DNA of 64,000 nucleotides. Source: Furfurilactobacillus milii (GTDB lineage Bacteria > Bacillota > Bacilli > Lactobacillales > Lactobacillaceae). A program made the translations under genes and the position numbers. Position 1 is the first letter of the stretch. Each line of letters begins with the position of its first letter. Below, one piece after another: positions 3,472 to 43,462 of the stretch. The stretch covers positions 124,001-188,000 of the forward strand of contig NZ_WEZQ01000001.1 in the NCBI RefSeq assembly GCF_009864005.1, written 5' to 3'. The notes beneath the pieces are model-generated. The model searched no databases. It had not been told where the DNA came from and saw only the letters and a list, made by a program, of their open reading frames with translations.

Positions 3472-3482
3472 TGATAAAACTC

Positions 3483-3719
3483 CTATCTTGTTGGGATAGG
3501 CGTATTACCCGCCAAACCTTCTTGGACTGGAATGCCAAGAATTTCTTCAACTGCTGAAACTGGGACGCGTCCGAGTTTTCTCGTTCGATAATAGCCGTAG
3601 CCTTTCTCTACCATCAGTGCTTTTGCCTGACGGATAATGTCAGCAGAAAAACCGGGGCCATAACCTAAACTAATCAGCTCACGCTTTGTCAGTGTAATGG
3701 GCAAAATAGGCGCGTTCAT
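3483..3719 (-). CDS. DUF3173-type small DNA-binding protein, probable excisionase
   Basis: This 78-residue basic protein carries the pattern of DUF3173 (LTKRELISLGYGPGF, IIRQAKALMVEKGYGYY, LGRVPVSAVEEILG), a family found beside integrases in streptococcal and lactobacillar ICEs. The pattern suggests a helix-turn-helix that reads DNA at the element ends, and position and size fit a recombination directionality factor. The start is supported by GGAGA seven to eight bases upstream. It is probably cotranscribed with int. It is not an obvious relative of Tn916 Xis itself, so the excisionase role rests on context and family. Confidence 0.75.
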   Translation of the reverse strand: MNAPILPITLTKRELISLGYGPGFSADIIRQAKALMVEKGYGYYRTRKLGRVPVSAVEEILGIPVQEGLAGNTPIPTR

Positions 3720-29300: not shown

Positions 29301-31117
29301 CCAGTTGTAATATTTTGCAGCGTAGACGCGTCTTTAGTTTCAGTACCAGCCGTAGTTATTGGGCTGCCTGATATAGTTCCTACTTGATATAAAAGCGTAT
29401 CATTGCCGTAATCATCCGTATCCAAAGGATTGTTTTGCGGATTGAGTGTACTTAAAACAATTTTGCGTTCACTGTCCTGACCAGAAATCCAAAATAACGT
29501 CATCGCACGCCCGGCCTGATAAGCATCCTTAAGTTTAGAATCTGTTTCAGTATCAGTACTAAAACTATTAACTGCATTTAAAAGAGTCGCAAAATGCGGT
29601 AATACATTCCCGCTCGAATCAGTGCCTGCATCATTATAGCCCTGGGTCCCATAATATAAACTGTTGTCAGTATTATCAGTACTAGTTACTAGCCATAAAT
29701 AGTCAGCTTCCGTTGTCAATGAGCCCTTGATGAACTCGCGAATTGTATCAGTATATCCATTTTGAATATCTGTGTTTGTTAGCTTATCATCACCCAATGC
29801 GGCAAAAGCATTACTGGATTTAATTTGTGTCCAGTTGATGCTAGACATAATATTATTGATCCAATTTTTGATAGTGTTCTGGGCCGAAGTAGTGGCTACG
29901 TTCAAATTTTCTTCAGTAGCACCCTTTGAAATAATCTTCTGAGCAGCGGTAAAGTCTGGTTTTTGAATATTAGTACCAATCCAATCAGATAAGGCTCCTC
30001 CAGCCGAATGACCACCTGTCCAGAACCCCTGTCCTAAGTCTGAAATAGCCGCATCAACGCCAGTAGTGTAATCTGTGTTAGTTGCCGCATCTATAATATT
30101 AATTACTGCTTTTTTTACATGTGCTTCAGATAATACTTTTTTTGCCTGTCGAATATCTTCGATGGAAGCTCCGCTTGGAAGACTTACAATCAACGTATCA
30201 TTATTTGAATCTTCAATTTTTGTACCCTTAACAAACTTATTTGGATCAATCAAACTCAGTGTTTGCATGTTTTTGTTAGCAGACGAAGCTATCGCCACTA
30301 AGCTCATTGGGACTGATGACGATGCAGAATTTACCGTCACAGAAGACGTCGTAGCAATCTCCATCGTTTGAGAAGTTTCACTTTTGCGATTAACAACGGG
30401 GGTTGTTGTATCAGTCCATGCAGTATTTGTAGCAATGCTTTTAGCTAATGGAGCAGTACTAGTAGGTTGAACTGTTTGTAGCGAGGAAACAGTTGCCGCC
30501 GTGCTTTGAGTATTGTCCGCGGAAGCAGAGCTAGAATTAGACTTTGCCTGTCCTTTATTAGTTGAGTCATTCGAACTAACAGATGTAGCGGATTGTGAGC
30601 CTTCTGCCGCTTTATTTTCAGTACTGCTGTTAGAAGTATTACTTGATGCTAAAGAAGCCGCCTGAACTTTCTTGGCGACTGAGGTACTTGTTTCATTTGT
30701 TTGGCTTGCCTGAGAGTTAGCCTGACTAGCCGAACTAACACTTTTTGATTGTTCTGATGATGCCTTAGTTGAACTTGTGTCCTGTGAGCCGGTAGTCGCG
30801 GCATCACTTGAACTATAATTACTTGATATTACTGATTTTTCGTTACTTGTTTTGTTTAAATCTGCTGACGAGCTGATACTACTTGCTTTTGTTGATGACT
30901 GAATCACGGCGCTATTTTGCTGTGCGCTTGAACTGCCATTAGGCGATTCAGTATCTGTGTTAGCTTCTTCATCAGCTTTAACAGGCTTGATGGTTGACGT
31001 GGCTACAGCCGCGCCTAAACTTAGGATCACGATGTTCGCGAACAACCAAGTCTTGCCAGCCTTATACATCTTGTAATGATTTTTCTCAGCTACGTGTCTA
31101 AACTTGCTTTTTAGCAT
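20378..31117 (-). CDS. Giant LPQTG-anchored adhesin with MBG and MucBP domains (3579 residues)
   Basis: Order of parts: KxYKxGKxW signal peptide (YKMYKAGKTWLFAN, cleaved near VKADE); Ser-rich stretch to about 285; a helical globular domain at about 290-1060 (landmarks SPLDLAIYSVLTGTSY and YYKQNSYVYYKVFSTLYKGY); a long beta-rich region of diverse repeats (about 1060-2490); MBG/YDG domains (about 2490-3140, motifs KFYGMTDP, KTYDGNAYTG, KVYDGTA); MucBP repeats (about 3140-3420); a Pro/Asp-rich linker; and LPQTGEQ at 3531 with a membrane span. The cytoplasmic tail after the span is unusually long (about 19 residues, ending REDETGRKF). GGGAGG precedes the ATG. It is inferred to bind mucus or host glycans. 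Its N-terminal domain is duplicated in the neighbouring gene. Confidence 0.92.
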   Translation of the reverse strand: MLKSKFRHVAEKNHYKMYKAGKTWLFANIVILSLGAAVATSTIKPVKADEEANTDTESPNGSSSAQQNSAVIQSSTKASSISSSADLNKTSNEKSVISSNYSSSDAATTGSQDTSSTKASSEQSKSVSSASQANSQASQTNETSTSVAKKVQAASLASSNTSNSSTENKAAEGSQSATSVSSNDSTNKGQAKSNSSSASADNTQSTAATVSSLQTVQPTSTAPLAKSIATNTAWTDTTTPVVNRKSETSQTMEIATTSSVTVNSASSSVPMSLVAIASSANKNMQTLSLIDPNKFVKGTKIEDSNNDTLIVSLPSGASIEDIRQAKKVLSEAHVKKAVINIIDAATNTDYTTGVDAAISDLGQGFWTGGHSAGGALSDWIGTNIQKPDFTAAQKIISKGATEENLNVATTSAQNTIKNWINNIMSSINWTQIKSSNAFAALGDDKLTNTDIQNGYTDTIREFIKGSLTTEADYLWLVTSTDNTDNSLYYGTQGYNDAGTDSSGNVLPHFATLLNAVNSFSTDTETDSKLKDAYQAGRAMTLFWISGQDSERKIVLSTLNPQNNPLDTDDYGNDTLLYQVGTISGSPITTAGTETKDASTLQNITTGPTIQMQQGIPAQYFITFDKIHENFLANSSNFAVNALTGAASVDNLTQLEKDLTNATFHAYYDEWETIVNDAFAKATSDALAGNSLALNASDAVGSNITYPVYSYNGHQYSLNTHQQALYQNAYRFAKAYLTGHEPKSDNDATTHLGSFGSGNTPLNVITDANSVESPLDLAIYSVLTGTSYTFNTARNGINTENGVNKSASVGTNFQSQGYSDTNADWIATAAQNDMYQIAWNVANQAKLDFLADVQLAVNKGDSAKLADLADMLPSADKPGILTAQQWAYYKQNSYVYYKVFSTLYKGYLVVKDAEDHLVSVIDSVVKDADNYVQQDGDSHYGDPVAQDIEKARAIETAIGQYIASDGKNPQPELTAHIDATQNTILNGDTTYTTPYSEDLNGNASMATVVTPTAQTTIAGTELQGENTAATRTIQNAVDYGYVHEEAMAIPAYEAGYAKVQMTLNVTPADKQSALSGPNDGDTYTFENTSNVTDNLTPVLTTTNPDGSTVWTVNYTNADGSSTIITINRTAPVLNLKPDPATGKLTALQETEQKIGQVTTIETVVNNITAADGSTTSKDSTPQTTNTTSVSYPSIGLHAGVTTDGKENTTVKATVNDDGTVSYNFNRVALNTVTTGTQPAIIDTLKPNVATTSNTDGSTSYSVSYNNADGTTSLVTLNRAKPVDSEKIGDITTMEVVTSGGSLTTPVDTGLIKAPIGTALVTAYPTDPTDKTKLTTISFTPNPDGTIGYRFTNANVASLAAKAKTANVVDVDGTNKGNLYQDGWDYRKSFIAYNTIIQQVADPDFKNPDVTDKNGQATNKLTTDQTYAGFFESKNSKGEVIKNQSVQLIPSSDVNNHYGSYTQKTVTNLDGSYTVVTLYVNGDIGYTVYDTKGNLSPANKQNITTTNPTGELILKANDKLITVTNDDAPATPIVDGTPDSAIVTKPSSVTITRTANDAITISETGVQSTMANKLNVQNQATTADVSVTVGNNVEPSFTSTTIVTPVSALHPGVVFSADTTVGINKDGITSTYDDDGSTNTNGLQYQGTVIDPTGPDINLVKDANGKSVLFNDASDKDTATNNLRAALRATDMSLDYGQARNTTTTLQYVANNVSNAGTGTTATINIDTSTPTLTIALGKYTDGVNAGQVISTSSFDADGVITPAVRAASKDVAVKAASDNIGTAIFDWTSWYQANKAALNNENWTYDDNTKTLTYTPTNKADIAALLAAATNGPITINWSGAKDATRAAMVDKYGDVMNLVITANVKSENAVTKDVNVSTTDVTNNQYTFTHEALEKLVNSDPSKPSDPNDLVTKFIEKWATSAGSTSRTYTGTMNGMPLPQGVAAVTLKSDGDIVVTYDDDEATSNYKVKTNTNVIKLVLPFTVDAKGDKYVPDETLKKKQTTDATSTTSNTGTDTTKDSTDNPVPPLAGLTLNMNMQGNVTVAYKAAAGGANTTVKQNDQSTNVSYAATGTDIKTAYTLTNAVLGSTYTVTVPATIAADKTANFDGATYKLINGTATNDPTAVKIDNATVEFGTNDKTYLYAKTVGVIQGVTPNKPTVTVNKTAAIADGVTETIDLSKEAADYDWNTVTFTPDANTSTKYDVKTVVNKAAKTVTVTFTPKTRADDLDFMADAYQEGLPLNGWLTDQKTVTGSTTPVLNNALYVETKAEPALENYTKAATIDVSKSGSGYDATAHTYTFDVPTSALSTQELTLLAQGQNLVLTNDSSATDVAKGYSSYSSDNWGSVKSMTISLNTDGTAHVVATLDTSSTPESSLQNGAILIAGTSSDSPADSGIHLALTLTNDLTQNSTGLPAGITKPVYPDLTGKNLKSTDDVTSKPVAGYVVTGATFNGTAVPASELKMNADGTATYTATHGWGDNSGATVADNLVWTYGPAKVAATIGTQSKFYGMTDPTTPYTVTGLSSWLKAPAAGWQSADFTRTYAKTNTANDPTQDPVGDYTVTLSDQGIKDLQAANPDYTITDATGKSTVDKIVAGKLTINPAPIKSTTQDTTRVYSSKSIAADSTNSDGSAYVPTEVFTSSNPKSTVIPKDLQLTDSQDYDYFLADGTTPIAASAAKNVGTYVWKLNAAGKKVLYQRLGNVDGDDKNLNFLLSDDSLESGKYTITADPLDVAVNNGIRDYNGNDIGTDDSSTDKKDFTNITFKNQKSDTTKVPDSISLDPKTDFTYKDAKGDVVPYTSVKDAGTYTWTVNDTGKAKIDAQLGEVKDASGKVTQAANFSIDDTQLTGTYTINKVAVTIAAPTLKKTYDGNAYTGTDDAATVTGKPANGAALTYSLTDISSDKDVGSYPMTITAKDTDNPNYTITVTAGLLEIDPQALTTAKPNTPTNPANPSVPNDNKPKTDTPQAKKSLTIIGATKVYDGTAASDPTTYTVEGPSDYSTFTIPKTFTAADFDTTGINSQNVGSYAVKLSAAGLKKLRAANLNFTVDDDDIQDGLFTITPRPVSVTVKDQTKSVGATDPTLTATTGTVVGKSVSGLVKGDTLNYTLSRARGETPGDYAISVTDGTNPNYTLTDTGGKLSITPVVTLHIEDQDGKPIAGESDTSLTSTDKPDTTVTVTQKSINGYTIEIGQPTSYTITSDSQQTVTLKYRKNASVIANYFLVGTDTPIAKSKTTDSGVGLAYTTTALDLTGYTLVATPQNASGTLGDTNKPVNYYYTVDYTPVIETPSGKTPIGYTPPVKPQTGTGTPGEPVNSKTSLPKIPGYTVTTVPNVPDKPGQVKVVYTPETETVTVHYYVVNSSTPVDGNSTVTLTGDFGDSYQTQAKSFSGYRLVAMPTNADGTYQVGGITVNYYYCVVNTVQPADPHAPTTTGFGTPVSPIDPDGGIVPTDPVNPDVPQVTPTQMPNYPDVLAANPVDPPVVDDPSDLVDPVSTPVEQVESSHGIKLTEQPMTQLRRSHAPRHAATAGSKQRTSRLPQTGEQNSSSLVVAGLSIITSSLALLGIKKYRHKHDLGSREDETGRKF

Positions 31118-31238: not shown

Positions 31239-33869
31239 TCATTTCGCCAATCGCATAATTGCAGCTTTTTCTTCTTGTTCGAATTCTTGTTTCATTTCAT
31301 TTTGTAAGACACCTTGGACAGATGTTGAAATATCGGCGCTAAGTTCGATGTTATTAAAGTTGCTTTCCGCCGTTGGCGTAATTACTGTTCCCGTGTTGTC
31401 ATTGGAATAGGCTCCAGTATAAGTTCGGTCAGCATTAAGTTTTAGATTAGTTGAAGTGTTTATCTTGACAGTCAAATCAGTGTATACAGATTGTGCTTTC
31501 TCAAAACTAATAAATGGAACATTGCCTTTATTTTGGTGAGTTATAGCAACATAGTTATCTGCGTCTTTAATAATTTCTTGTTTCAGTGTTCCTAAAGATT
31601 TATTAGTCAAATAAGTTTCAACTAACGTCTCAAATACCTTGTAATAAACATAGGAGTTCTGCTTATAAAAACTATATTGGGAACTAGTTAATATGCCTTG
31701 GTTGTTTTCTGATGGCAAAATGTTGTCGTTCAATATCAGCTCGGAACCCTGTTGATTCATAACTTTTGCATTTATATCGGTGAGAAAATCATTTTTTGCT
31801 TGCTGTGCTACTTCATAAATTTGTTCATACATATTTTTTTCAATCGGATTACTTAACCAATCTGTATTCGAATTCGATATTTTTCCAATCTGAAACGGTT
31901 TTGAGACTATTAAACTACTTCCGTTTATTGAATATTTATATGGCTTACCTGTTAATGTGGAGTAGATTGCAAGATCAAGTGGTGAAACTATTTTAAAACC
32001 GTTCTCAGTATTCTTTGCCTCTTGATTAATTGGTGTATTCCCGATGCCAATCGGGAATCCTTCCTGTGTAGAATAGTTGTAACCTGTTAGGTACATTTTT
32101 GCTAATCCATATGAATACATAAAAAGCCCTGAACGATCGTACCTAATGTTGCCTTGAATGTAATTTTGAGGCATGATTTCTTTTGCGCGTTCCGTTACAT
32201 TATTGTTTCCGCGTTGTGTCAACAAAGCGGCACTATTACCAGCAAGTGCATCCTTTGTAGCAGCATCGACACCTTGTGTCACGATGTTCTGTAAGCTGCT
32301 GTAGTATGCGTCGAACACTGTCCTATAAACCAATTTTTCAAGTGAGTTATAGTTGTCAAAAGAGTTGTTTGTATCTGTCATAGAATAAGGCATTTGTCTG
32401 TTTGGATCAGAGACAGTGGCCGTTTTCCAAAGATAATCATGATTAGGGAAGCTTCGTCCAAAGAAAATTTGGTTTTCGACTAATGATAAATTCATTTCTG
32501 GCGTGCCATACAAACTAGCGATATTTCCAATCAATGAATCGTCAGTATCCACGAAGGATGTAAGCACTCGTGCGTTTAAAAAATCATCTACTTTTTGTAT
32601 TGAGGTAGAATTTGCACATATTGCAGCGATGACAGCCTCAAATCCGGCGTTGAAGCTTGTGGCTAGGTTGGTAGCAATTGGAAATGTGCTTTCCATTGTC
32701 AACATTTGTGATCTCAACGTTGCAAACTTATCTACATAACCATCTATTCCATAGAAATTACTGCTATCAGACTCTGATATAGCATTCAATAGCCACAAGT
32801 AGTATGCATTCGCCGTCAATTGGCCTTCAAAGACACTCTTTAGGGTGTCTACGTAGCCGTTTTTTTCATCATCCGTAGCTAAAACCAGAGGATTATATTC
32901 GTCATATGCGGCTTTAAATGCATCGCTAGAGGACAACTGAGTCCAATTTACGTTCTTCGTTTGGTCTATAACCCAAGTTGCAATTCTTTGTTTAGCCTTT
33001 GCATCAGAATCTTGATTAATTGATCCATCAGCATTTAAAGATAACCCATTAAAACTAGAGCATAACTGACTCGCATCTACATCTCCCATCCATGACTTAA
33101 TATCATAATTACCAGCATAACCACCATAAAAATTCCAGGTAAGAGCTTGAATAGCCTTTTGTTTGCCACTGTTATAAGCGGCATTAACGACCGCTTTAAG
33201 CGGTTCAACGGTGTCAGAACTATTTGTACCGCGCATATTTACAGACTGATTGTTTGATTGAATTGAATTAGATAATGCGTTATTCGCAGAAGAGTCAGCT
33301 TCTGTACCATCTTTGCCTGTCGCAGCGTTGCTGTCGTTGTTTGCCACACTAGTGAAAGCTTTCGATTTCAGGCTCGTCGCTTCATAAGTAGAATTAGCAG
33401 ATGCAGATTTTGCAGCTGAACTAGAAAATGTCGGCTGAGAAGCGTTTTTGACACTTTCATTGCTTTGATTATCTTGCACATTAGTTGCATTTTCATTTGA
33501 AGATTGTTGACTACTTTTAACTGTTGGCACACTATTCTGAATAATCACTGGCGTCGTCGATTGAGGGGTAATAGCAACAGTAGAGGAGGAACTTGTTTGT
33601 ATGGAAGTAGTTACGCTCTGCGCCATACTACTGGACGCAGCAGGCTGAGCACTACTTGAACTACTAGCAGAAGAGTCAGTCTTTGACACAGTCTGTTTTG
33701 TTGTAACAGCTTGTGTTGTTGGCGTTTCATCTGCTTGTGCAATTGTCGGTTTAGATGTGCTGACTGCTAGTCCAAGACTAAATGTAGCAATTCCAGCAAA
33801 TAGCCAAAACTTTCCCGCCTTGTACATCTTGATATGTTCTTGTCGATTAGAATTTTGAATTTTGCTCAT
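31239..33869 (-). CDS. Anchorless paralogue of the giant adhesin's N-terminal part (876 residues)
   Basis: It has the same KxYKxGKxW signal peptide (IKMYKAGKFWLFAG), Ser-rich linker (about 45-215) and helical domain (about 220-876) as the giant adhesin downstream. Shared landmarks are SPLDLAIYSTLTGKPY, FYKQNSYVYYKVFETLVETY, KDADNYV and VITPTAESNF. It ends in EEKAAIMRLAK, near the point where the giant protein goes on into its repeats, so it lacks repeats and any sorting signal and should be released. The two genes lie head to tail, 121 bp apart, and look like a tandem duplication in which this copy lost, or never had, the wall stalk. The domain itself belongs to no family I recognise. Confidence 0.88.
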   Translation of the reverse strand: MSKIQNSNRQEHIKMYKAGKFWLFAGIATFSLGLAVSTSKPTIAQADETPTTQAVTTKQTVSKTDSSASSSSSAQPAASSSMAQSVTTSIQTSSSSTVAITPQSTTPVIIQNSVPTVKSSQQSSNENATNVQDNQSNESVKNASQPTFSSSAAKSASANSTYEATSLKSKAFTSVANNDSNAATGKDGTEADSSANNALSNSIQSNNQSVNMRGTNSSDTVEPLKAVVNAAYNSGKQKAIQALTWNFYGGYAGNYDIKSWMGDVDASQLCSSFNGLSLNADGSINQDSDAKAKQRIATWVIDQTKNVNWTQLSSSDAFKAAYDEYNPLVLATDDEKNGYVDTLKSVFEGQLTANAYYLWLLNAISESDSSNFYGIDGYVDKFATLRSQMLTMESTFPIATNLATSFNAGFEAVIAAICANSTSIQKVDDFLNARVLTSFVDTDDSLIGNIASLYGTPEMNLSLVENQIFFGRSFPNHDYLWKTATVSDPNRQMPYSMTDTNNSFDNYNSLEKLVYRTVFDAYYSSLQNIVTQGVDAATKDALAGNSAALLTQRGNNNVTERAKEIMPQNYIQGNIRYDRSGLFMYSYGLAKMYLTGYNYSTQEGFPIGIGNTPINQEAKNTENGFKIVSPLDLAIYSTLTGKPYKYSINGSSLIVSKPFQIGKISNSNTDWLSNPIEKNMYEQIYEVAQQAKNDFLTDINAKVMNQQGSELILNDNILPSENNQGILTSSQYSFYKQNSYVYYKVFETLVETYLTNKSLGTLKQEIIKDADNYVAITHQNKGNVPFISFEKAQSVYTDLTVKINTSTNLKLNADRTYTGAYSNDNTGTVITPTAESNFNNIELSADISTSVQGVLQNEMKQEFEQEEKAAIMRLAK

Positions 33870-34390: not shown

Positions 34391-34618
34391 CTACAAGTCT
34401 GCATTATCACAATGCTTATCAATATTGAATTTACGCACTAGATAAACAAATAGCTCTCTTAGATCTTGATAACAGTCTTCATCAAATTGATTGTTGATAA
34501 ATGCGTGTTTAATCAATAACGCGTCAAACCGCTTTAGAAGAAATGCCAAGGACTCTGTATCTCCATTTTGTGCTTCTTTAATGTATGGCAACAAGTCGAT
34601 ATATTCTCTCTTATTCAT
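34391..34618 (-). CDS. HTH_16-type small protein, Tn916 Orf8-like
   Basis: This 75-residue protein (KEAQNGDTESLAFLLKRFDA, then DEDCYQDLRELFVYLVRKFN) has the pattern of the short conjugative-transposon proteins related to sigma factor regions 1-2, such as Orf8 of Tn916. Its ATG overlaps the stop of the Orf7-like sigma gene (ATGA-type overlap at 34615-34618), so both are made together. In Tn916 the pair raises expression of the transfer genes. The pair here is 30 kb from int, separated by the adhesin cargo, and likely still feeds ICE regulation; that role is inferred. Confidence 0.78.
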   Translation of the reverse strand: MNKREYIDLLPYIKEAQNGDTESLAFLLKRFDALLIKHAFINNQFDEDCYQDLRELFVYLVRKFNIDKHCDNADL

Positions 34619-35019
34619 TTAGTTTCCTCTTGATACATGTTCAAGATTTTCGCCAATGTTTGATGTCGCCTTTTCGCAACTGCTTGCCGAGAGAGTCCTA
34701 ATCCTAAAGCAATTTCAGCATCACTTCGCTTGGTAACGTATTTATCATACATAAGTTGTTTTTCTTCCTTAGTGATAGTACTAATGCACCAGGCTAACCG
34801 ATCATTGGCAATATAATCTTCCATGTGTGCGATATTATTCTCAGTGAGCATTTCTAAATCTTTTATTTTTTCTTTACTCACCAGTTGATTAGCAATTCTT
34901 TCATTAAGTTCAACCTGAATAACCTGATTACTTCGTTTCCAATGATGGATAGCATGGTTGATGATTGATCTTTCAATATACTTCACAAATCTTTTATTAA
35001 CCTCGCGTTCCTTAGACAT
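34615..35019 (-). CDS. Sigma-70 region 4-like regulator, Tn916 Orf7-like
   Basis: This 134-residue protein resembles Orf7 of Tn916-type elements. The C-terminal part carries a sigma region 4 helix-turn-helix (TKRSDAEIALGLGLSRQAVA, about residues 96-115, followed by KRRHQTLAKIL). Region 2-like helices at the start include INHAIHHWKRSNQ. The start codon follows AGGAGAAC. With the 75-residue partner it would form a split sigma factor-like activator. It is the only sigma-type regulator seen in the element and so a candidate master switch for transfer. Confidence 0.8.
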   Translation of the reverse strand: MSKEREVNKRFVKYIERSIINHAIHHWKRSNQVIQVELNERIANQLVSKEKIKDLEMLTENNIAHMEDYIANDRLAWCISTITKEEKQLMYDKYVTKRSDAEIALGLGLSRQAVAKRRHQTLAKILNMYQEETK

Positions 35020-35055: not shown

Positions 35056-35607
35056 TCACGCTGCAATCCGTAACAATAATTGAAAGATATTTGCCATTTG
35101 CGCTGGGGTCTCTTCGAAGTTTTGGGATTCCCAACTAAAAGTCAGTGCCGATAAGCCATTGGCAAGATAATCAACTTCGTAATTAGTTGGAACATCCAAG
35201 GACAGGACAATGTTGTGGTGCATGAGATAGGGTAGATATTCGATCATACATTGTGTCAAAATGTGTTCACGTTGATTGATTCTCAAAAGGTGAATTAACT
35301 CAGAGTGATGCATCATGAAATTGAAATAATACTTGTACAGTTCATTTGGAGTCTTTCTGGAAAGTGACTCTACTCGCTCAAACAGCAACTCAAAGTGGCT
35401 ATCAAAATAAAGTTCGATAACTTGTTCTTTGGATTCAAAGTTTCTGTGGAAAGTACTTCGAGAAACCCCAGCTACACGACATAACTCTTTAATACGGATA
35501 TCATCTATTTTCTTTTGGCGCATCAACGTGAGTAAAGCTGACAAAATAGAATTGCGTGCAACCTTGTTTTCATTATCCATCGGAAACATGTATAAAAGTG
35601 GAAACAT
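35056..35607 (-). CDS. TetR/AcrR family transcriptional regulator
   Basis: The protein has an N-terminal TetR helix-turn-helix (SILSALLTLMRQKKIDDIRI, then KELCRVAGVSRSTFHRNF) and an all-helical C-terminal ligand domain of about 110 residues. I place the start at ATG 35605-35607 (MFPLLYMFP, 183 residues), because AGGAG lies eight bases upstream; the longer frame from 35673 has no such signal. It lies 36 bp upstream of the Orf7-like gene in the same direction, so the three genes could be one operon. Its target and ligand are unknown; no transporter or enzyme gene is adjacent. Confidence 0.85.
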   Translation of the reverse strand: MFPLLYMFPMDNENKVARNSILSALLTLMRQKKIDDIRIKELCRVAGVSRSTFHRNFESKEQVIELYFDSHFELLFERVESLSRKTPNELYKYYFNFMMHHSELIHLLRINQREHILTQCMIEYLPYLMHHNIVLSLDVPTNYEVDYLANGLSALTFSWESQNFEETPAQMANIFQLLLRIAA

Positions 35608-35747
35608 GCGATCATCTCCTAAAAGTGTTGCATCATCGAATAATTTTGGGCAATCAAGTGCAAATTTCATCACGTCTGATGCGGTTTACACACAAATATC
35701 TGACTTTATTAATGCAATAATTAAGATTATAATAAGTGGCATATTCT

Positions 35748-35871: not shown

Positions 35872-36051
35872 TTAATGCATTGGCATGCTAACGAACTCTA
35901 AATTAATTGGTCTGTTAGCATGTGAAACTTGGGCCGTAGTCTGGTTAGAATTTTCATTTTTTGTAACCTCTGCATTAGCACTCACAGTGCCAGCTAAGCC
36001 AACGCCTAATGCGACAGTCATTACTACCATAAGTTTGTTGAATTTTTTCAT
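35872..36051 (-). CDS. Secreted small peptide, candidate pheromone precursor (59 residues)
   Basis: The start is the ATG at 36049-36051, behind a GGGGTGGAG ribosome binding site. Residues 1-27 form a classic Sec signal peptide (MKKFNKL, hydrophobic core, cleavage near SANA/EV). The mature part is about 32 residues, polar (TKNENSNQTTAQVSHANRP), and ends INLEFVSMPMH. Size, signal peptide and position divergent from an XRE-TPR regulator match PapR- or SHP-type precursors of RRNPP quorum sensing, where a short C-terminal peptide is released and re-imported. It has its own consensus promoter and terminator, so it is a single-gene unit. The pheromone role is an inference; a small secreted bacteriocin-like or stress peptide is the alternative. 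Confidence 0.72.
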   Translation of the reverse strand: MKKFNKLMVVMTVALGVGLAGTVSANAEVTKNENSNQTTAQVSHANRPINLEFVSMPMH

Positions 36052-36101
36052 TGTCTCCACCCCTGTAATGTTTTTATTAGTAAATCCTTAAATCCGCGTC
36101 A

Positions 36102-36131
36102 ATTATAGCACGTTATGATAATTTTTGTCAT
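36102..36131 (-). promoter_or_regulatory. Consensus promoter of the secreted peptide gene
   Basis: On the minus strand ATGACA (36126-36131) and a perfect TATAAT (36102-36107) are 18 bp apart, about 50 bp upstream of the peptide start. Confidence 0.75.
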
Positions 36132-36132
36132 A
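36114..36132. promoter_or_regulatory. Palindrome over the peptide promoter, candidate RRNPP operator
   Basis: TATGATAATTTTTGTCATA has arms TATGA/TCATA separated by nine bases and covers the -35 box of the peptide promoter, 38 bp upstream of the first regulator's start. A dimeric XRE regulator bound here could control both divergent genes. Confidence 0.5.
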
Positions 36133-36169
36133 TTATCAATATTTATATTATTTTCTAGGAAGTGATTTT

Positions 36170-37036
36170 GTGATTGACGGTTCTATTATTCGTAAAAAAA
36201 GAAGATCAATGCACCTATCTCAAAGAGACCTTGCTGCCAACATCACAACGCAAACTACTATTAGTAACTTAGAGAATTCAAGTGGAATCCCTAACAGTGA
36301 GCTCTTTAATAAGATTCTTCGGCGACTAGGATTATCAATGGATGATGTATTCACCGAAGATACTGCCGAACCAGGTCCTTATTTGTCTAAAGCAGACGAC
36401 GCTTCTAAAAATTTTGACCACCAGGGGGTTCTTGATATTCTAAAAAAGATTGAACCCAATGAGAATTTTACTGATGAAGATACTCTCCACTATGACTTTC
36501 TAAAAGCTGACGCAGAGATGTGGCTCACAAAAGACTACATGGGTGCAATTTTTAATTACAATAAAATGCAAGAGTTTGCGCGAAATAAAACTGACCTCAG
36601 CATATATTCTGTTCTTGCAGTATGTCAGCTTGGCACGGCATACTATTATTCCGAAAGAGTTGATTCAGCAATTCATTATTTTAATGAACTGCCAAAGTTA
36701 CTTGAACAAATTGATATAGAGAACAATCTTTATTGGACACTATTCATCATGGATAATTTGACCAATTTTTGGTCCAAACAGCATGAATTCAAAAAGAGCA
36801 TTGACTTTGGACAAAGGGCACTGGAAATAACCGAAAAGTATCACACCATCGATTTCGCTGATACTCTGAGTTTTACTGTGGGTGAAAACTATGCTTATTT
36901 AAAAGGTTGGGACAATAAAAAAGCTCAGGAATATCTAGCCCAGTCCTATTTTCTTGTTAAGTACACTGGTAGCAAAGTTGCTCAAAAAGTTATTAAAGAA
37001 AGACTAACTGAACATCATATTAGTTTTCAATGGTAG
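36170..37036 (+). CDS. RRNPP-type regulator 1 of 6 (XRE HTH plus TPR)
   Basis: I chose the GTG at 36170-36172 (288 residues, MIDGSIIRKKRRSMHLSQRD), preceded by AGGA nine bases away; its five neighbours start in the same way. Residues 1-60 are an XRE helix-turn-helix (SQRDLAANITTQTTISNLEN). The rest is helical TPR-like repeats (for example SVLAVCQLGTAYYYSERVDS, then HYFNELPKLLEQ), the layout of PlcR/Rgg-type pheromone receptors. It is divergent from the secreted peptide, 118 bp away, with a palindrome over the peptide promoter, making it the most likely receptor. A strong terminator (37112-37139) follows, so it is a single transcription unit apart from the other five. Confidence 0.88.
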   Translation: MIDGSIIRKKRRSMHLSQRDLAANITTQTTISNLENSSGIPNSELFNKILRRLGLSMDDVFTEDTAEPGPYLSKADDASKNFDHQGVLDILKKIEPNENFTDEDTLHYDFLKADAEMWLTKDYMGAIFNYNKMQEFARNKTDLSIYSVLAVCQLGTAYYYSERVDSAIHYFNELPKLLEQIDIENNLYWTLFIMDNLTNFWSKQHEFKKSIDFGQRALEITEKYHTIDFADTLSFTVGENYAYLKGWDNKKAQEYLAQSYFLVKYTGSKVAQKVIKERLTEHHISFQW

Positions 37037-37549
37037 TTGATTGTATCAGGATAGCGAAAATGATCATATATACTAACCATGGTTCATCGCTCAATTAGTT
37101 AAATACTATGAAATCCCCGCAATGCGGGGATTTTTTTTTGCAAAGATCATGGTCCGTTTAACATCCTTGATAATAATATTTAAAATGCAATCAACTATAA
37201 ACCAAATAAACAATAAAAGTATCTCGGCTACTCGTGCATATTTCTGTCACATTATGGTTTTCATCAAAGCAGTTGTTGGTCTTATTGAGAAGCTGCATCC
37301 TTTTTTGAAGAATTTTTTCATCACACAAACAAGTGCTAAAACGCGCTATTAATAGCAAAACAAGATAAATAAGTTCTGCTGACTTTTAAAAAGAGACGAG
37401 GCGTATTTTATTTAATTCATGATTAGTATTACAATCATATATAAATTACCTACGTTAATCATCCGAATAATGGACAAGCGGAAAGCTTCTCTTAGCATAA
37501 ATCGCATACACTGATTAATTCCATCATTTTGACAAAGGACGTGACCAAA
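37037..37549. other. Gap between RRNPP regulators 1 and 2
   Basis: It holds the terminator at 37112-37139 and then an AT-rich stretch that must contain the promoter for regulators 2-6. Short open frames occur but none has a ribosome binding site, and no secreted peptide was found. Confidence 0.45.
37112..37139 (+). terminator. Strong terminator after RRNPP regulator 1
   Basis: AATCCCCGCA and TGCGGGGATT form a tight GC stem with almost no loop, followed by nine T. Confidence 0.9.
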
Positions 37550-38452
37550 TTGATTGATGGTAAAAGAGTAAAGATCACACGAATGAAACAACACGTTTCT
37601 CAACGCGCCTTAGCTGAGGGAATCACCAGTCAATCAACAATCAGCAAACTTGAAAATGAAAGTGTGGCACCAAATCCTGATGTGTTGGCACAAATCGCTG
37701 ACAGACTAAACTTGAGCATGAGCGATATAGTCATGGACAATCTAAAATCTGCTGATACCTTACTGAAAGATACAGATTTAGCAATCGGCAAGCATGAACC
37801 CAAACGGGCTAACAAGTATTTAAACCAAATTAATATCGATGACATTTACACAAGTCATACAAAACTACATTACTTATTTTTGAAAAATGATATTAACTTT
37901 CTGCTCACGCAAGATGCCGATGAAGCCATTTTTAACTTTACACGATTACTTGATCAGGCTGATGCATTTAAGAGTACAGATAGTATTTATACGCATTTAG
38001 CACATTGTCAATTAGCAGAACTATATTTCTCTAAAGGTAATTTTGAAGCCACTCAATACTATCTAAAGCTTGTTCCTAAGAAATTCAGTCAAGTGGAAAT
38101 TAGTGTCAATATGCATTGGATTATCTATCTCAAGCAACATGTTGCTCAGACTTTGTTTAACCTTCATCAATATTCGTCGAGCTTTGACTATGCTAAGCAA
38201 GCTTTAAGTCTTGCTAAGAAACGCGACACATTGGATTTAGTGGATTCATTAACGTTTCTAATTAGTCTTAACCTTAGTCATATGAATAACGGGTGGAAAA
38301 ACATTCAGGCAGAACACTATCTAATGCAAGCCTGGGCATTAGCCGAATATACAGAAAATCGGGAACTTCAAAAAAAAATTTATGCAGTACTAAATAGTAA
38401 TGAGTTAACAGCCGATTTCTCAATACAAGCTTTTGCAAAAGGTTCCCTATAA
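37550..38452 (+). CDS. RRNPP-type regulator 2 of 6 (XRE HTH plus TPR)
   Basis: A 300-residue protein with an XRE helix-turn-helix (SQRALAEGITSQSTISKLEN) and a TPR-like C-terminal domain (YTHLAHCQLAELYFSKGNFE, then YYLKLVPKKFSQV). I chose the TTG start at 37550 (MIDGKRVKITRMKQ) since AAAGGA precedes it with the same spacing as in the neighbours; the frame could begin seven codons earlier at an unsupported codon. It opens a tight run of five genes reading to 41926. Its TPR domain differs clearly from regulator 1, which suggests a different ligand. Confidence 0.87.
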   Translation: MIDGKRVKITRMKQHVSQRALAEGITSQSTISKLENESVAPNPDVLAQIADRLNLSMSDIVMDNLKSADTLLKDTDLAIGKHEPKRANKYLNQINIDDIYTSHTKLHYLFLKNDINFLLTQDADEAIFNFTRLLDQADAFKSTDSIYTHLAHCQLAELYFSKGNFEATQYYLKLVPKKFSQVEISVNMHWIIYLKQHVAQTLFNLHQYSSSFDYAKQALSLAKKRDTLDLVDSLTFLISLNLSHMNNGWKNIQAEHYLMQAWALAEYTENRELQKKIYAVLNSNELTADFSIQAFAKGSL

Positions 38453-38538
38453 TCTGCTGGTGACTTTTCAAAAGATCATTTGACGTAAATTTAAGACTTC
38501 AAAACAAACATTCTATCTTCTTACAGGAAGTGATTCAT

Positions 38539-39405
38539 TTGATCAACAAGGAAATCGTACGAGCTGCTCGTAAAAGGCTATCTCTATCACAATATGATTT
38601 AGCAGCAGACATTACTACTCAGTCCACGGTTAGTCGCATGGAACGTGAAGGGGTGGCTCCTGCACCAGAAGTCACAGCTAAACTACTAAGTCGACTTCAG
38701 CTCAGATTAAGTGACGTGCTAATTAACCCAGTACCTGATTTCAAACTTTATTTCGATCAGGCTGATGAAGCTGCCATAGCATTTAATTATGAAAAGGTAT
38801 TAGAAAACATTAATAAAATCGATCTAAACAAGCTTGTAACTGAGAACGATCGGCTGCATCTTGAATTTTTAAGGGCCAATGCCACTATGTGGACTAGTAA
38901 GGACTTCATGCAAGGCATGTTTGATTTTAAAAAATTACTAGACTCTGCCAAACATAATACGACCAGTATTTATTATGTCCTTTCTGTTTGTCAGTTGGGA
39001 AAAGCCTATTTTACCAATCAAAAAAATGACGCAGCAAAATATTATTTTGATCAACTGCCCGCGCTTCTCGATTATATGGATGTCTCTAAAAATTTATTCT
39101 GGGTCTTATCCATTTATGACAACCTAATAGACTTTTTATCAAAGATAGAAAAATATGATCAAAGTCTCAAATACGCAAAAGATGCGTTAACAATCAGTGA
39201 AAAGTATCAAACCTACGCTTTCGTTGCCAGCATCAGTGAAAATATTGGTCGAGATTATGCCATTTGCGAGAGTTGGAATTCTAAAAACACTCAGAGGTAC
39301 TTCCTTCAATCGTGGGTATTCGCGCAAATAGAACATAATAATACGATGCTCCAAACTCTTAAAAATGAGTTTCAAAATCATGGTGGTTTGCTAATTTCAC
39401 TGTAG
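38539..39405 (+). CDS. RRNPP-type regulator 3 of 6 (XRE HTH plus TPR)
   Basis: A 288-residue protein starting at TTG 38539 (MINKEIVRAARKRLSLSQYD) behind AGGAAGTGA. The helix-turn-helix reads SQYDLAADITTQSTVSRMER. The TPR part (VLSVCQLGKAYFTNQKNDA, then YYFDQLPALLDYM) is closest by eye to regulator 1, so the two may be recent duplicates. It lies 86 bp after regulator 2. The function is probably peptide-gated DNA binding, as for the family; its target is unknown. Confidence 0.87.
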   Translation: MINKEIVRAARKRLSLSQYDLAADITTQSTVSRMEREGVAPAPEVTAKLLSRLQLRLSDVLINPVPDFKLYFDQADEAAIAFNYEKVLENINKIDLNKLVTENDRLHLEFLRANATMWTSKDFMQGMFDFKKLLDSAKHNTTSIYYVLSVCQLGKAYFTNQKNDAAKYYFDQLPALLDYMDVSKNLFWVLSIYDNLIDFLSKIEKYDQSLKYAKDALTISEKYQTYAFVASISENIGRDYAICESWNSKNTQRYFLQSWVFAQIEHNNTMLQTLKNEFQNHGGLLISL

Positions 39406-39467
39406 GAAATCAAAAAAACAATCGCAAAAAGCATGATTTTTATGGGTTTAGAGAGGGGCTAATCAAC

Positions 39468-40127
39468 ATGTTAAATGGTCATATTATCCGTGATGCTCGC
39501 CTAAAGCTGCATTTAAGCCAAGCTGAGCTAGCTAAAGGTGTAACAAACAAAGAAACTGTCGGTTTTATTGAGCACAACATGGTTACACCACGCGCAAAAA
39601 CAATTAATGGGATTTTAAAACGCTTAAACCTCAAATACGAGGACGTTGTGGCTGAGAAAAATCATGACGCCAATTTTGCCTTAAAAGATATTGAAAAGTT
39701 AATTATGAATCGACAGTATCAGGCCGCTTTATCGCGGTTAAAATCATTAAACGTTCAAACCTTAACCAGTCATACAAAACTAGAAGTTGACTTTCTGACC
39801 GCATTTGCCGATTTAAAGCTAACTCAAAACTACAATCAAGCCATCTTTGAATACAATCGGTCAATCACTGGTAGTAACACAAAATCGACTGATATTTTTA
39901 GCATTCTGATTATTGAACAATTGGGCATGATTTACTCGAAACAAGGGAAAAAAAGCAACGCAAGATTTTATCTTGATCAGATCCCCAGACTTTTACAAAA
40001 CTCCGGTATTGATTCAAGTTCTTATTGGTTTAAATTTATTTACCACGATTTGTCTCAGTTTTACGCACAGGCCAACAAGAAACAAGGTAAACATTCGATT
40101 TTAAATGTTGTCCAAAAGTCCGTATAA
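39468..40127 (+). CDS. RRNPP-type regulator 4 of 6, C-terminally truncated
   Basis: ATG start with a GAGGGG-type ribosome binding site; 219 residues against 283-300 in its neighbours. The helix-turn-helix reads SQAELAKGVTNKETVGFIEH, with TPR-like repeats after it (FSILIIEQLGMIYSKQGKKS). The pattern follows its neighbours up to YHDLSQFYAQANKK and then turns into an unrelated end (QGKHSILNVVQKSV), so about the last 65 residues, covering the final TPR helices, are lost. It may act as a dominant-negative or constitutive DNA binder, or be a decaying copy. It lies 34 bp before regulator 5. Confidence 0.8.
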   Translation: MLNGHIIRDARLKLHLSQAELAKGVTNKETVGFIEHNMVTPRAKTINGILKRLNLKYEDVVAEKNHDANFALKDIEKLIMNRQYQAALSRLKSLNVQTLTSHTKLEVDFLTAFADLKLTQNYNQAIFEYNRSITGSNTKSTDIFSILIIEQLGMIYSKQGKKSNARFYLDQIPRLLQNSGIDSSSYWFKFIYHDLSQFYAQANKKQGKHSILNVVQKSV

Positions 40128-40160
40128 CAAAAATTTCATTTTATTGGGAAGTGAACTGCT

Positions 40161-41012
40161 ATGATTGACGGTCACAAAATTCGTAAAGCCAGATTGGCAA
40201 TGCACTTAACACAAATACAACTTGCAAAAGGTATTACCGACCGCTTAATAATTGGAAAAATTGAGAACAACAAAGAGGTTCCCCACGATAAGTTACTGCG
40301 AGCAATACTCACGCGACTCAATATCGATTACACTGACGTCTATTTTGATAGCAATCAAGTTGAGTTAGAGAAGTTAGATCAACTAATCATAGATGGACAT
40401 TACATCTCAGCTAAAAATGCACTACCAGGAATCATGAAAAATATTGAAAATGAACACGATGAGTTACATGCAAAATTCTTAGAGTCTTATGTGTCATTCC
40501 GCCTGCGTTCAGACCATTATAATCAGGACTTACTTAATTTTCGCCAGTTAGCCGCGATTGAGGGCAAACATCCAGAGGACGTTTTTTCTTTTTTAGCAAT
40601 TGATCAATTGGGCATGGTCAACGAGCGATTAGGAAATACTAAGCAGGCTGAAGCATTCTTTAAACAAGTAATTGAGTTTTTGCCACAAATCAAAGAAAAA
40701 GCCAATATTAATTGGATTGCATTCATCTATCGTGACCTAGCAGATCATTACAGTAACATTGAAGACTATGGACTCAGCAATAAATATGCAAAACAAGGAT
40801 TGGAGCTAGCAAGCGAGCATAACAGCACCGTTCTAGCAGATTCATTGAGCTATGAAATTGCTCAAAATACCGCAAAATTAAACAGTTGGAATGATCCAAA
40901 GGCGATTGATTATTTAATTCAAGCATGGACTTTTGCAAATTTCACACTCAATTATGCCAATACAAAATTCTTTAAACACATTTTGGATACACATCATGTT
41001 GCAGTCTGTTAA
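40161..41012 (+). CDS. RRNPP-type regulator 5 of 6 (XRE HTH plus TPR)
   Basis: 283 residues from ATG (GGGAAGTGA upstream). The N-terminal domain (MIDGHKIRKARLAMHLTQIQ, then GITDRLIIGKIENN) is XRE-like. The TPR part includes FSFLAIDQLGMVNERLGNTK, FIYRDLADHYSNIEDY and SDSLSYEI-type motifs. It groups by eye with regulators 4 and 6. It is probably part of the same transcript as regulators 2-6 (gaps 34-86 bp). Confidence 0.87.
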   Translation: MIDGHKIRKARLAMHLTQIQLAKGITDRLIIGKIENNKEVPHDKLLRAILTRLNIDYTDVYFDSNQVELEKLDQLIIDGHYISAKNALPGIMKNIENEHDELHAKFLESYVSFRLRSDHYNQDLLNFRQLAAIEGKHPEDVFSFLAIDQLGMVNERLGNTKQAEAFFKQVIEFLPQIKEKANINWIAFIYRDLADHYSNIEDYGLSNKYAKQGLELASEHNSTVLADSLSYEIAQNTAKLNSWNDPKAIDYLIQAWTFANFTLNYANTKFFKHILDTHHVAVC

Positions 41013-41062
41013 GCCTCAGTGTCTTATGACAATCATAAATTGAACTGAAAGGATTGATGGCT

Positions 41063-41926
41063 TTGTACAATGGTCGTGTCATTCGTGACGCTCGTCTGGC
41101 TCAGCATTTAACACAAGCAGAACTAGGGGCTGGCATCTGTGACCAGCCCGCTATTAGTCACATTGAGAACAGCAATGAGTTACCCTCAGATCGCATTATC
41201 AAGATCCTTCTTAACCGCTTGAACTTACGCTATTCAGATGTTATAGACAACAAAAACGTCAATGCAAATTATGCACTGCCAGAAATTGAAGAGCTTATAA
41301 GCAAGCAGCAATATCAACTGGCAACGGAACGTTTAAAAGCTTTGGACAGAGACACATTAACGACTCACACCACCCTGGAAGCCGATTTTCTGATCGCATA
41401 TGTGAACTTTCATTTAAATAAGAATTATGACCAGGCAATTTTTGAATTTAATCGTAATATCCTCGGTGACGAAAAACAATTGATTGATCCTTTCGAAATT
41501 CTGTCTTTGGATCAGTTAGGGCTTATTTATTGTTTAAAAAAAGAACTCGATAATGCCAGATTTTATTTTCAGCAAATACCTGACCTACTATCAAAAGCAA
41601 ATATTGCTTCTAACACCTATTGGATTACACTAATTTATCATGACCTGGCCTTCTTTTATTCACGCACACACGAATATAAACTCAGCAATCACTATGCTAA
41701 ACGCGGACTAGAGCTGCTTAAAGAAAATCATCAGAGTCAGTTCGTGGATTCACTCAGCTTTACGATTGGAAAAAACTATGCCAACACAACGCAGGACTGG
41801 AAGAAATCGAGTGCCAAACATTTTTTACAGCAAGCTATTACTTTTGGGAAATTCAAAGGCAACCTCGATTTAGTAAAACGTGCAGAAGCAATTATTGTGC
41901 AGCATGAACAATCGTATACAAATTAG
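41063..41926 (+). CDS. RRNPP-type regulator 6 of 6 (XRE HTH plus TPR)
   Basis: 287 residues if the TTG at 41063 is used (MYNGRVIRDARLAQHLTQAE), which gives the same nine-base spacing to AAGGA as in the paralogues; an ATG two codons upstream (41057) is possible. The helix-turn-helix is GICDQPAISHIENS; the TPR motifs include EILSLDQLGLIYCLKKELDN and YHDLAFFYSRTHEYKLSNHY. It is the last gene of the array and ends at a strong bidirectional terminator shared with the convergent transfer operon. Confidence 0.87.
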   Translation: MYNGRVIRDARLAQHLTQAELGAGICDQPAISHIENSNELPSDRIIKILLNRLNLRYSDVIDNKNVNANYALPEIEELISKQQYQLATERLKALDRDTLTTHTTLEADFLIAYVNFHLNKNYDQAIFEFNRNILGDEKQLIDPFEILSLDQLGLIYCLKKELDNARFYFQQIPDLLSKANIASNTYWITLIYHDLAFFYSRTHEYKLSNHYAKRGLELLKENHQSQFVDSLSFTIGKNYANTTQDWKKSSAKHFLQQAITFGKFKGNLDLVKRAEAIIVQHEQSYTN

Positions 41927-41929
41927 TCG

Positions 41930-41984
41930 AACAGTCGTTGAATATCAGTCTAAATACCTGACTGAATATTCCAACGATTGTTTT
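41930..41984. terminator. Bidirectional terminator between RRNPP array and transfer operon
   Basis: A long hairpin (ACAGTCGTTGAATATCAGTC against GACTGAATATTCCAACGATTGT, near perfect) ends in TTTTCTTTT on the plus strand. It overlaps the last codons of the tcpC gene, so it serves the array and probably also ends the transfer transcript. Confidence 0.85.
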
Positions 41985-42936
41985 CTTTTATTAGGTGTAG
42001 CTCAAATTGCGAAAGTTGCGTCATATTAGTCTCATTATCCAGGTATTTAACGGTAACACTGACCCTTAATCCCTGCTTTTCCTTGTGGAAGATTGGATTA
42101 ACCAAGTCATCAAGCTTGTAGTCCTTATGCAGTGGCTGAATATTTTGATCGGCCACGTAGTACTTCAATTCATTCTGTGACCCTTGTGGATAGAGTGCGA
42201 AAAAGGTCTTGAGGAATTTCGTTGCGTCAGCCACGGTGTCTGGATTCACTGAGTTGTCGGTTTGTGACTGGGTTTCCTTAATATTGGCCTTACTTGGCGC
42301 CGCCGCAATCGTTGGATTCTTGGTAATGACTAAATTGCCTTGGTTACTTTCTTGCACGTTAACACTATAAGTACTTTGAACATGTTTGATTGACGGTTCG
42401 GACTTCTTGTCCTTATCGTCTTTTTTGTCGTCCTTTGGTCCTTTATCATGATCCACTTTCAAGGTTTGATTGATGGCAAATAGGACTTCGAATTGCTGCT
42501 TAGCAAGCTGTTTTACACGCCAAATCTTAACTTGGTCGATTGATGAGGTTGATGGAATATCGCTGCGCACCGTGTCGGCATCCAGTGTTTGTAAACTATT
42601 AGTGAGATAGTCTTTTAAATTAGCTTGCCGTTGGTCTAAGGCTTCGTGACTTGGTTCCCAGCTAAAGTAAACTTTCGCAAAGTCAGATACAAAGGTCGTC
42701 ACGGCGTGTGTATCAACCACCACGGTACGCACCACTTCATGTTCATGAACGGTGTGCGTGTCAATTGCTGTAAAACTTTTATAGACACCAAAACTAGTGC
42801 CTAGTATTAAGACACTCCAACACAAGACGACTGTCTTCTTGCGCAAGCCAATGCGTTTGAACCGCAAACGCGGTTGTGGTGGTTTGACTTCTTTAGTTTC
42901 GCTGGTCTTTGCTACGGGTTTGTGTTTTTTAAACAT
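41950..42936 (-). CDS. tcpC: Conjugation protein TcpC (Tn916 Orf13-like)
   Basis: 328 residues from the ATG at 42934-42936, behind AAAGGAG; the longer upstream frame is not supported. The N-terminus is cytoplasmic and basic, followed by one membrane span (VVLCWSVLILGTSFGVYKSF, about residues 34-53) and an extracellular part with two NTF2-like TcpC domains separated by a Lys/Asp-rich linker (GPKDDKKDDKDKKSE). TcpC/Orf13/VirB8-like proteins are core parts of the mating channel. The gene overlaps the preceding one by eight bases and is the last gene of the transfer operon. Confidence 0.9.
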   Translation of the reverse strand: MFKKHKPVAKTSETKEVKPPQPRLRFKRIGLRKKTVVLCWSVLILGTSFGVYKSFTAIDTHTVHEHEVVRTVVVDTHAVTTFVSDFAKVYFSWEPSHEALDQRQANLKDYLTNSLQTLDADTVRSDIPSTSSIDQVKIWRVKQLAKQQFEVLFAINQTLKVDHDKGPKDDKKDDKDKKSEPSIKHVQSTYSVNVQESNQGNLVITKNPTIAAAPSKANIKETQSQTDNSVNPDTVADATKFLKTFFALYPQGSQNELKYYVADQNIQPLHKDYKLDDLVNPIFHKEKQGLRVSVTVKYLDNETNMTQLSQFELHLIKENNRWNIQSGI

Positions 42937-43462
42937 TTTGATTGACTCCTTTTTGTTCGTAGGGTTTGTAGTAAGCTGGGTAATCACGTAAAAATCGTTT
43001 GAAGATTGTTTGGAGACGTAACCGTACATAATCGGCGGCGTCCATTGCCATATATTCGTCATACATATCGTCTTCTAAGAAAAATTTCTCAGCCATGAAG
43101 TGTTCACGCCCAATGATGAAATCATAATCACCTTTGATGAAGTGCTTATTCGCCAGCCATTCTTCGACATGGGTCACATGTTCATCAGCCATCAAATATT
43201 CTTGTCGATGACCAGCCTTTAACGTGGGTAATTGCGCTGCCAAGTATTCCAACTCTGTAGAAAGGTCATCCGTATTAGGCAGGCGTTGCTCAAAGAAGTG
43301 GATTCGTTCCCAAGTTGACGAAAAGTGATCGGTAATTTGTTTTTTTAGTAACTGATTATCGCCGTAGGATAAATCGATTTTTTCATCTTTGATGGTGGTA
43401 ATCAGCGTTTCAGTCAACAGTCCCAACCAAGCTACATAGGAGTAGCCTTCGGTGTCTATCAT
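42929..43462 (-). CDS. Transfer-operon protein of unknown function (177 residues)
   Basis: I start it at the ATG at 43460-43462 (MIDTEGYSYV), with GTAGGTG a short distance upstream. The protein is acidic, helical and cytoplasmic, without membrane span or known motif. It overlaps tcpC by eight bases and follows the orf14 frame by ten, so it is fully inside the transfer operon. Tn916 has no gene at this position; this is an accessory of the lactobacillar branch or an insertion. Function unknown. Confidence 0.75.
   Translation of the reverse strand: MIDTEGYSYVAWLGLLTETLITTIKDEKIDLSYGDNQLLKKQITDHFSSTWERIHFFEQRLPNTDDLSTELEYLAAQLPTLKAGHRQEYLMADEHVTHVEEWLANKHFIKGDYDFIIGREHFMAEKFFLEDDMYDEYMAMDAADYVRLRLQTIFKRFLRDYPAYYKPYEQKGVNQNV

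Follow-up and report, generated by a model that had tools for sequence, protein, structure and literature searches.

The receptor genes at positions 36170-41926 of a 64,000-nucleotide stretch of Furfurilactobacillus milii DNA (contig NZ_WEZQ01000001.1, positions 124,001 to 188,000; the window) were analyzed for their order and homology, their predicted fold, the history of their duplication and changes in residues. We favor, with modest confidence, the reading that this locus comprises a PlcR/PapR-like pair, formed by a propeptide gene and the first receptor gene, R1, together with five old tandem receptor duplicates, R2 to R6, and that it is carried as cargo of a Tn916-type integrative and conjugative element (ICE) with giant surface-protein genes.

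Six PlcR-like receptors in tandem

The array consists of six head-to-tail open reading frames (ORFs) on the plus strand, each with helix-turn-helix (HTH) and tetratricopeptide repeat (TPR) regions; HTH_3 scored above the Pfam cut-off in all six, and TPR matches were found in all six under that cut-off. This agrees with a preliminary description of the stretch, which had listed six XRE-plus-TPR regulators on one strand and one truncated copy. The latter is R4, which has probably decayed; the R4-R5 gap is only 33 bp, and therefore the missing part was deleted rather than moved to another frame. The GTG and TTG starts described there hold for four of the six genes (GTG in R1; TTG in R2, R3 and R6), whereas the fixed spacing does not, the gaps from R1 to R6 being 513, 86, 62, 33 and 47 bp.

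A profile of 18 receptor sequences was compared with the PDB, where PlcR (2qfc) was the best full-length match (E 2e-21, positions 4-280); the Rgg2 chains matched no further than the first 100 positions (1e-5), and ComR reached 0.002 over the whole length. In the AlphaFold2 (AF2) model of R1, with a mean predicted local distance difference test score (pLDDT) of 92.3, PlcR ranked first in Foldseek and was aligned over 278 residues with a VIA Z of 22.9 and a root mean square deviation (rmsd) of 8.8, followed by Rap, the first non-PlcR row, at 19.4 and ComR at 16.1. The R6 model (pLDDT 89.7) matched PlcR with a VIA Z of 21.7 over 276 residues and an rmsd of 7.2, and then Rap at 18.7. The high rmsd probably arises from a different arrangement of HTH and TPR in the models. 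Rgg was rejected as the closest family, with PlcR ahead in both profile and VIA comparisons and Rgg chains lower in the Foldseek list. The HTH_3 matches and the two models thus bear out the earlier assignment of the six as RRNPP-type receptors. The preliminary description would have been refuted had the TPR parts lacked peptide-binding pockets or had all six copies been degenerate and not expressed; instead, R1 and R6 have a predicted PlcR fold, and all ratios of nonsynonymous to synonymous differences (pN/pS) are below 1 at saturated pS.

A broad receptor profile matched 248 of the 397 genomes of the family at E <= 1e-30, with at most six candidates scored per genome; among the matches listed (E up to near 7e-51), at least two receptors within 5 kb were found in this genome only. 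Across the six genomes of the genus (E <= 1e-20), F. rossiae DSM 15814 carries two receptors 1.7 kb apart on contig C28. A tandem RRNPP receptor array was not found in the literature searched, which comprised open-licence papers.

The propeptide gene and its relatives

The gene located upstream of, and divergent from, R1 encodes a propeptide with a lysine-rich start, a hydrophobic stretch and the end LEFVSMPMH, and has a ribosome-binding motif. It is the one convincing peptide gene of the locus, as the preliminary description had it. Array gaps filtered for ORFs with hydrophobic starts yielded no convincing peptide gene beside R2-R6, and an adjacent small secreted propeptide, as expected of RRNPP(A) systems, was found for R1 alone. 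In the other gaps the filter returned two ORFs, both between R1 and R2 (37122-37352, plus strand; 37412-37498, minus strand), which have no ribosome-binding site by the motif list used and hence were not counted; the former begins inside a terminator-like hairpin. One of these ORFs could be a second peptide gene.

We checked 23 receptor starts for divergent peptide ORFs; the filter passed 11, and seven were judged convincing (loci L060, L063, L067, L069, L055 at its first receptor, L073 and L050). They represent five distinct systems, with L067 and L069 near-identical and L050 and L055 related, and their products end in ELPYH, DIPYH, QLPYH (twice), DDLEYR, DDLGYR and INFDEE. When tested for a PapR-like x-[LIM]-P-[FYM] end, four of the seven end in LPYH or IPYH, and the window peptide ends in SMPMH; for comparison, PapR7 is ADLPFEF and PapRa7 is CSIPYEY (PMC3519770). 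The window propeptide also shares NRPxN..F with the L050 and L055 propeptides. Because the relatives share the divergent layout, some with PapR-like ends, the propeptide and R1 look like an ordinary pair. A search for propeptide homologues in the 397 genomes gave matches at E <= 0.1 in 84; judging by E-values and long frames, with one match (genome G012) inspected closer, we regard the remaining ones as signal-peptide matches. Against plasmids, the propeptide gave one weak, unrelated match.

Three further loci of the genus were observed. The window's genome has a second propeptide gene, at 1256-1444 of L050 (contig C23), where a receptor frameshifted within the HTH adjoins an intact propeptide gene ending in HNRPTNYYFSLKDDLGYR (296-1444); the contig is short and the frameshift could be an assembly error, and an intact relative of this receptor-propeptide pair is present in L055 of F. 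rossiae (contig C28). Divergent from a second, distant receptor in L055 (6330-7415) lies an ORF of 42 codons, with a ribosome site and the end SIPPMHYV, a faint echo of SMPMH in the window peptide; its hydrophobic stretch resembles a membrane anchor, and it was left out of the seven. In F. milii FUA3583, a 35-codon hydrophobic ORF is divergent from the receptor on contig C11 and was not counted.

Origin and divergence of the copies

A 32-row tree places R1-R6 in one clade (97/95) with the receptor shared by F. milii FUA3583 and F. rossiae DSM 15814; R1-R6 with the F. milii receptor alone are supported at 100/98 in a tree of 25 rows, obtained by removing seven distant or partial rows. The array is therefore the product of tandem duplications that took place long ago within this lineage. 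Within the clade, the grouping of R4 with R6, and of R5 with both, is well supported, and R2 joins them at 91/76 and 90/82; R1, R3 and the F. milii receptor show no supported branching order among themselves. Pairwise identity among R1-R6 is 25-45%. The pN/pS values are 0.46-0.77 over the 15 array pairs (0.54-0.77 among R2, R3, R5 and R6), with pS saturated at 0.68-0.85, and indicate only long constraint on the frames. Recent duplication or an assembly artefact was rejected: direct repeats of at least 40 nt within the array do not exceed 77% identity. Searches found no DNA relatives of the array on plasmids and confirmed no relatives of R6 in the genome contig collection.

The preliminary description had contrasted similar DNA-binding domains with diverged TPR domains. 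The pattern is present and is not special, mean HTH and TPR identities being 40 and 28% within the array versus 50 and 34% among ten unlinked single receptors, and the DNA-binding part is not uniformly similar, with the recognition helix altered in R4-R6. Residue columns were taken from a MAFFT alignment; the HMMER alignment to PlcR sets Asn201 one column off the conserved Asn. In the recognition helix, Q28, T30 and S32 (numbered as in R1) are retained in R1, R2 and R3, and are present in 15, 14 and 15, respectively, of the 15 other receptors with data. The same columns read K/T/G in R4 (two changed), R5 has R/I/G (three changed), and R6 has Q/A/S (one changed). The PlcR Asn201 column holds Asn in R1 and R3, His in R2, and Asp in R4, R5 and R6; among 16 other receptors there are 11 Asn, two Asp, and one each of Ser, Phe and Gln. 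One of the two outside receptors with Asp lies on C28 of F. rossiae and is accompanied by a clear divergent propeptide; the other is the frameshifted counterpart of this receptor on C23 of the present genome. Asp alone therefore does not mean lost peptide binding. Gln153 of TPR2 is invariant across R1-R6. The array may sense several peptides, as the preliminary description suggested, although R4 lacks its C-terminal repeats and four of the six copies lack Asn at the Asn201 column.

Regulatory regions

The intergenic region between R1 and the peptide gene contains, on the minus strand, a promoter-like ATGACA-18-TATAAT (36131-36102) whose -35 element lies inside an imperfect palindrome (36114-36132). 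Of 300 mononucleotide shuffles, 27 equalled or surpassed this palindrome, and its consensus has no further site in the window below three mismatches. The best 18-mers common to the regulatory regions of R1, R2, the surface-protein genes and the F. milii locus were at most one letter above those of sets of six shuffles. Going by the terminator-like hairpins, the peptide gene and R1 would be single-gene units and R2-R6 a further unit.

The cargo slot and the surface-protein genes

The window holds an ICE of the Tn916 superfamily, as previously described, with genes for TcpC, AAA_10 (a VirB4-type ATPase), an FtsK-type coupling protein, a Rep_trans relaxase and a tyrosine integrase. TcpC matches were found in 37 of the 397 genomes, this one included, and 20 ICE stretches from the other 36 were compared. 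None of the 20 carries a receptor, and the array is therefore cargo. Seven of them span TcpC and the orf7-like gene; all seven orf7-like genes are without a receptor, and other genes occupy the slot in the six with readable contents. The genes at one boundary of the slot are presumably the orf7 and orf8 of Tn916 nomenclature (Table 1). Among the ICE genes, a TIR/SEFIR-domain protein is encoded at 52574-53779 and is possibly involved in defence or counter-defence.

The chromosomal receptor of F. milii FUA3583 and a giant surface-protein gene are divergently oriented, and a small ORF that appears by eye to be ribbon-helix-helix (RHH)-like separates the two. The protein encoded there is 35% identical over 531 aa (E 1e-80) to the 876-aa surface protein of the window and 32% identical over 694 aa (E 1e-78) to the 3579-aa one. 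Homologous surface-protein domains are found in four of the six genomes of the genus. The preliminary description had proposed that the array controls transfer or adhesin expression; the adhesin part gains some support from the F. milii adjacency, and the transfer part is disfavored by the receptor-free ICE stretches. The label "adhesin" was assigned by eye, from signal and cell-wall-anchor sequences.

Altogether, four large surface proteins are encoded in the window between the integrase and orf7/orf8 (9467-33869); the signal motif is YKAGKxW in three and YKKGRHW in one, and two of the four are homologous (31% over 730 aa). In F. rossiae DSM 15814 (L048, contig C19, about 3380-3490), the N-termini of both the orthologous receptor and the surface protein are missing where the divergent genes meet, a double loss that looks as if it came from one deletion.

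Table 1. Features of the receptor locus and its surroundings in the window
Feature	Position	Strand	Description
Giant adhesin-like surface protein	20378-31117	-	3579 aa; label by eye
Adhesin-like surface protein	31239-33869	-	876 aa; label by eye
orf8-like and orf7-like (sigma-70 type) genes	34391-35019	-	One boundary of the cargo slot
TetR-family regulator	35056-35673	-	Flanked by the sigma-like and peptide genes
Terminator-like site after peptide gene	35783-35758	-	10 pairs
Propeptide gene	35872-36051	-	Putative PapR-like pheromone; propeptide of 59 aa with a signal-peptide-like start; C-terminus ...SHANRPINLEFVSMPMH
Divergent promoter region	36052-36169		Putative operator, without statistical support
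R1	36170-37036	+	PlcR-like HTH+TPR receptor; GTG start; 288 aa
Terminator-like hairpin after R1	37110-37134	+	11 pairs, T run; strongest of 7 sites in 8.3 kb
R2	37550-38452	+	TTG start; 300 aa
R3	38539-39405	+	TTG start; 288 aa
R4	39468-40127	+	ATG start; 219 aa; without C-terminal repeats
R5	40161-41012	+	ATG start; 283 aa
R6	41063-41926	+	TTG start (41054 also possible); 287 aa
TcpC conjugation gene	41950-43062	-	Other boundary of the cargo slot

Discussion

Taking PlcR/PapR as the basis, we infer how the peptide may be processed and bound, which DNA may be targeted, and what R2-R6 may do. After secretion, cleavage of the propeptide would release a short peptide from its C-terminus (about FVSMPMH); an oligopeptide permease would bring this peptide back into the cell, where it would bind in the TPR groove of R1. 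Peptide-bound R1 would then act on the divergent promoter and, most likely, also on the surface-protein genes. This response may be modulated by R2 and R3 via similar DNA sites. R4-R6, whose pockets have diverged and whose DNA recognition has changed to varying extents, may be either rewired or decaying.

Several results weigh against this model. The promoters of R1, R2 and the surface-protein genes share no operator beyond what shuffles give, and the PlcR box TATGNAN4TNCATA has no exact site in the window and one site with one mismatch versus 3.53 expected. Terminator-like sites number 7 versus 5.2 +/- 2.5 in shuffles of the 8.3 kb, and promoter-like sites 35 versus a shuffle mean of 31.2. 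The peptide end MPMH matches LPYH or PapR in part only, and 16 of the 23 receptor starts are without a convincing peptide ORF. With respect to the pocket, the column of PlcR Lys204 (PlcRa Lys208) holds Lys in none of the six array receptors and in five of 16 others; the columns that we take to be those of PlcR Lys89 (Lys87) and Tyr275 are likewise not conserved, and the ligand may therefore be held differently than in PlcR. The PlcRa ligand residues, which we infer to correspond to PlcR N201 and K204, derive from a docking model (PMC3519770). Finally, the genus has five more loci with homologous surface proteins, and by coordinates none of these lies within 60 kb of a receptor (E <= 1e-20); the adjacency of receptor and surface protein amounts to one independent case, on C11 of F. 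milii with its broken ortholog on C19 of F. rossiae.

It is unlikely, in our estimate, that R2-R6 sense peptides of other systems, from their own cell or its neighbors, and combine these inputs. Such a role would fit the lack of a convincing peptide gene beside R2-R6 and the full-length frames of R2, R3, R5 and R6, retained despite deep divergence at the pN/pS values given above. The same genome also encodes the L050 propeptide, whose own receptor is frameshifted; that receptor and its intact F. rossiae relative carry Asp at the Asn201 column, like R4-R6. Receptors without pheromone genes have also been proposed as eavesdroppers in a survey (PMC9765709). However, no ligand is assignable, R4 is truncated, simple duplication accounts for the tandem position, and the ORFs of the R1-R2 gap could be peptide genes undervalued by the filter. 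A more specific form, which we consider quite unlikely, is that R1 reads its own peptide while R2, R3 and rewired R4-R6 read those of other systems (e.g., L050 1256-1444) and act on different operators; if this were true, one mobile element would weigh several signals before turning on surface adhesins.

The opposite view, that only R1 and the peptide work and that R2-R6 are leftovers of a birth-and-death process, we hold to be as unlikely as the sensing of foreign peptides. The truncation of R4, the recognition-helix changes in R4, R5 and R6 (two, three and one, respectively), the replacement of Asn in the Asn201 column of R2 and R4-R6, and the broken receptors of the same family on C19 of F. 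rossiae and C23 of the present genome all point in this direction, but five of the six frames are intact at saturated synonymous change, which neutral decay should not leave, and the R6 model retains the PlcR fold. There is only a slim chance that the array governs excision and conjugation of the ICE. It adjoins the sigma-like orf7/orf8 genes, and PrgX controls plasmid transfer (PMC5552905). Plasmids of Enterococcus and Carnobacterium carry distant R1 homologues (14 records at 22-28% identity), and one of the two plasmid regions viewed has the homologue beside a replication initiator gene. Nevertheless, the six readable slot-spanning ICE stretches have other genes in the slot, the orf7-like gene stands without a receptor in seven of seven, and the closest receptor is chromosomal, beside a surface-protein gene.

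Among known systems, PlcR/PapR and PlcRa/PapRa of the Bacillus cereus group are alike in the HTH+TPR fold and are the best sequence and fold match; a small secreted propeptide adjoins the receptor, and the x-[LIM]-P-[FYM] C-terminal core recurs in some relatives. The present locus differs from PlcR/PapR in its divergent peptide gene, its five receptor duplicates and its setting in a lactobacillus ICE; the window has no PlcR box, and conservation is lacking at several pocket columns. In Bacillales PlcR systems the pheromone gene is directly downstream of the receptor, according to one survey (PMC9765709), whereas that of the array is upstream and divergent; papRa is upstream of plcRa (PMC3519770). 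The streptococcal TprA/PhrA and PapR/TprA-like systems, likened here by description, also represent PlcR-family receptors in Lactobacillales, but generally with one regulator per genome and two in 3 of 204 Streptococcus salivarius genomes, as stated in one survey (PMC12445099), compared to six in tandem here. PrgX and TraA of enterococcal pheromone plasmids are likewise HTH+TPR receptors on mobile elements, and R1 matches enterococcal plasmid proteins at about 26% identity, not assigned to TraA or PrgX; however, PrgX controls transfer, and the array is cargo with surface-protein neighbors. On Enterococcus faecalis pMP8-1 (L124, 3924-5843), two divergent HTH regulators, one a distant R1 homologue, lie by a replication initiator gene. 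The same genome as the window has a second head-to-tail regulator array, of five Rgg-like genes (contig C2; L049, 6938-11807) that are 22-47% identical; unlike R1-R6, the two genes tested match Rgg/GadR/MutR TIGR01716, one over the cut-off, and the profile of the present array misses L049.

The locus adds PlcR-like receptor-peptide pairs in Lactobacillaceae to a record in which one survey reported no PlcR systems in Lactobacillales (PMC9765709) and streptococcal PapR/TprA systems are known (PMC12445099). The graded paralogues of the array, some keeping and some losing DNA-recognition and pocket residues, represent a natural series on the change of partner and target after duplication.

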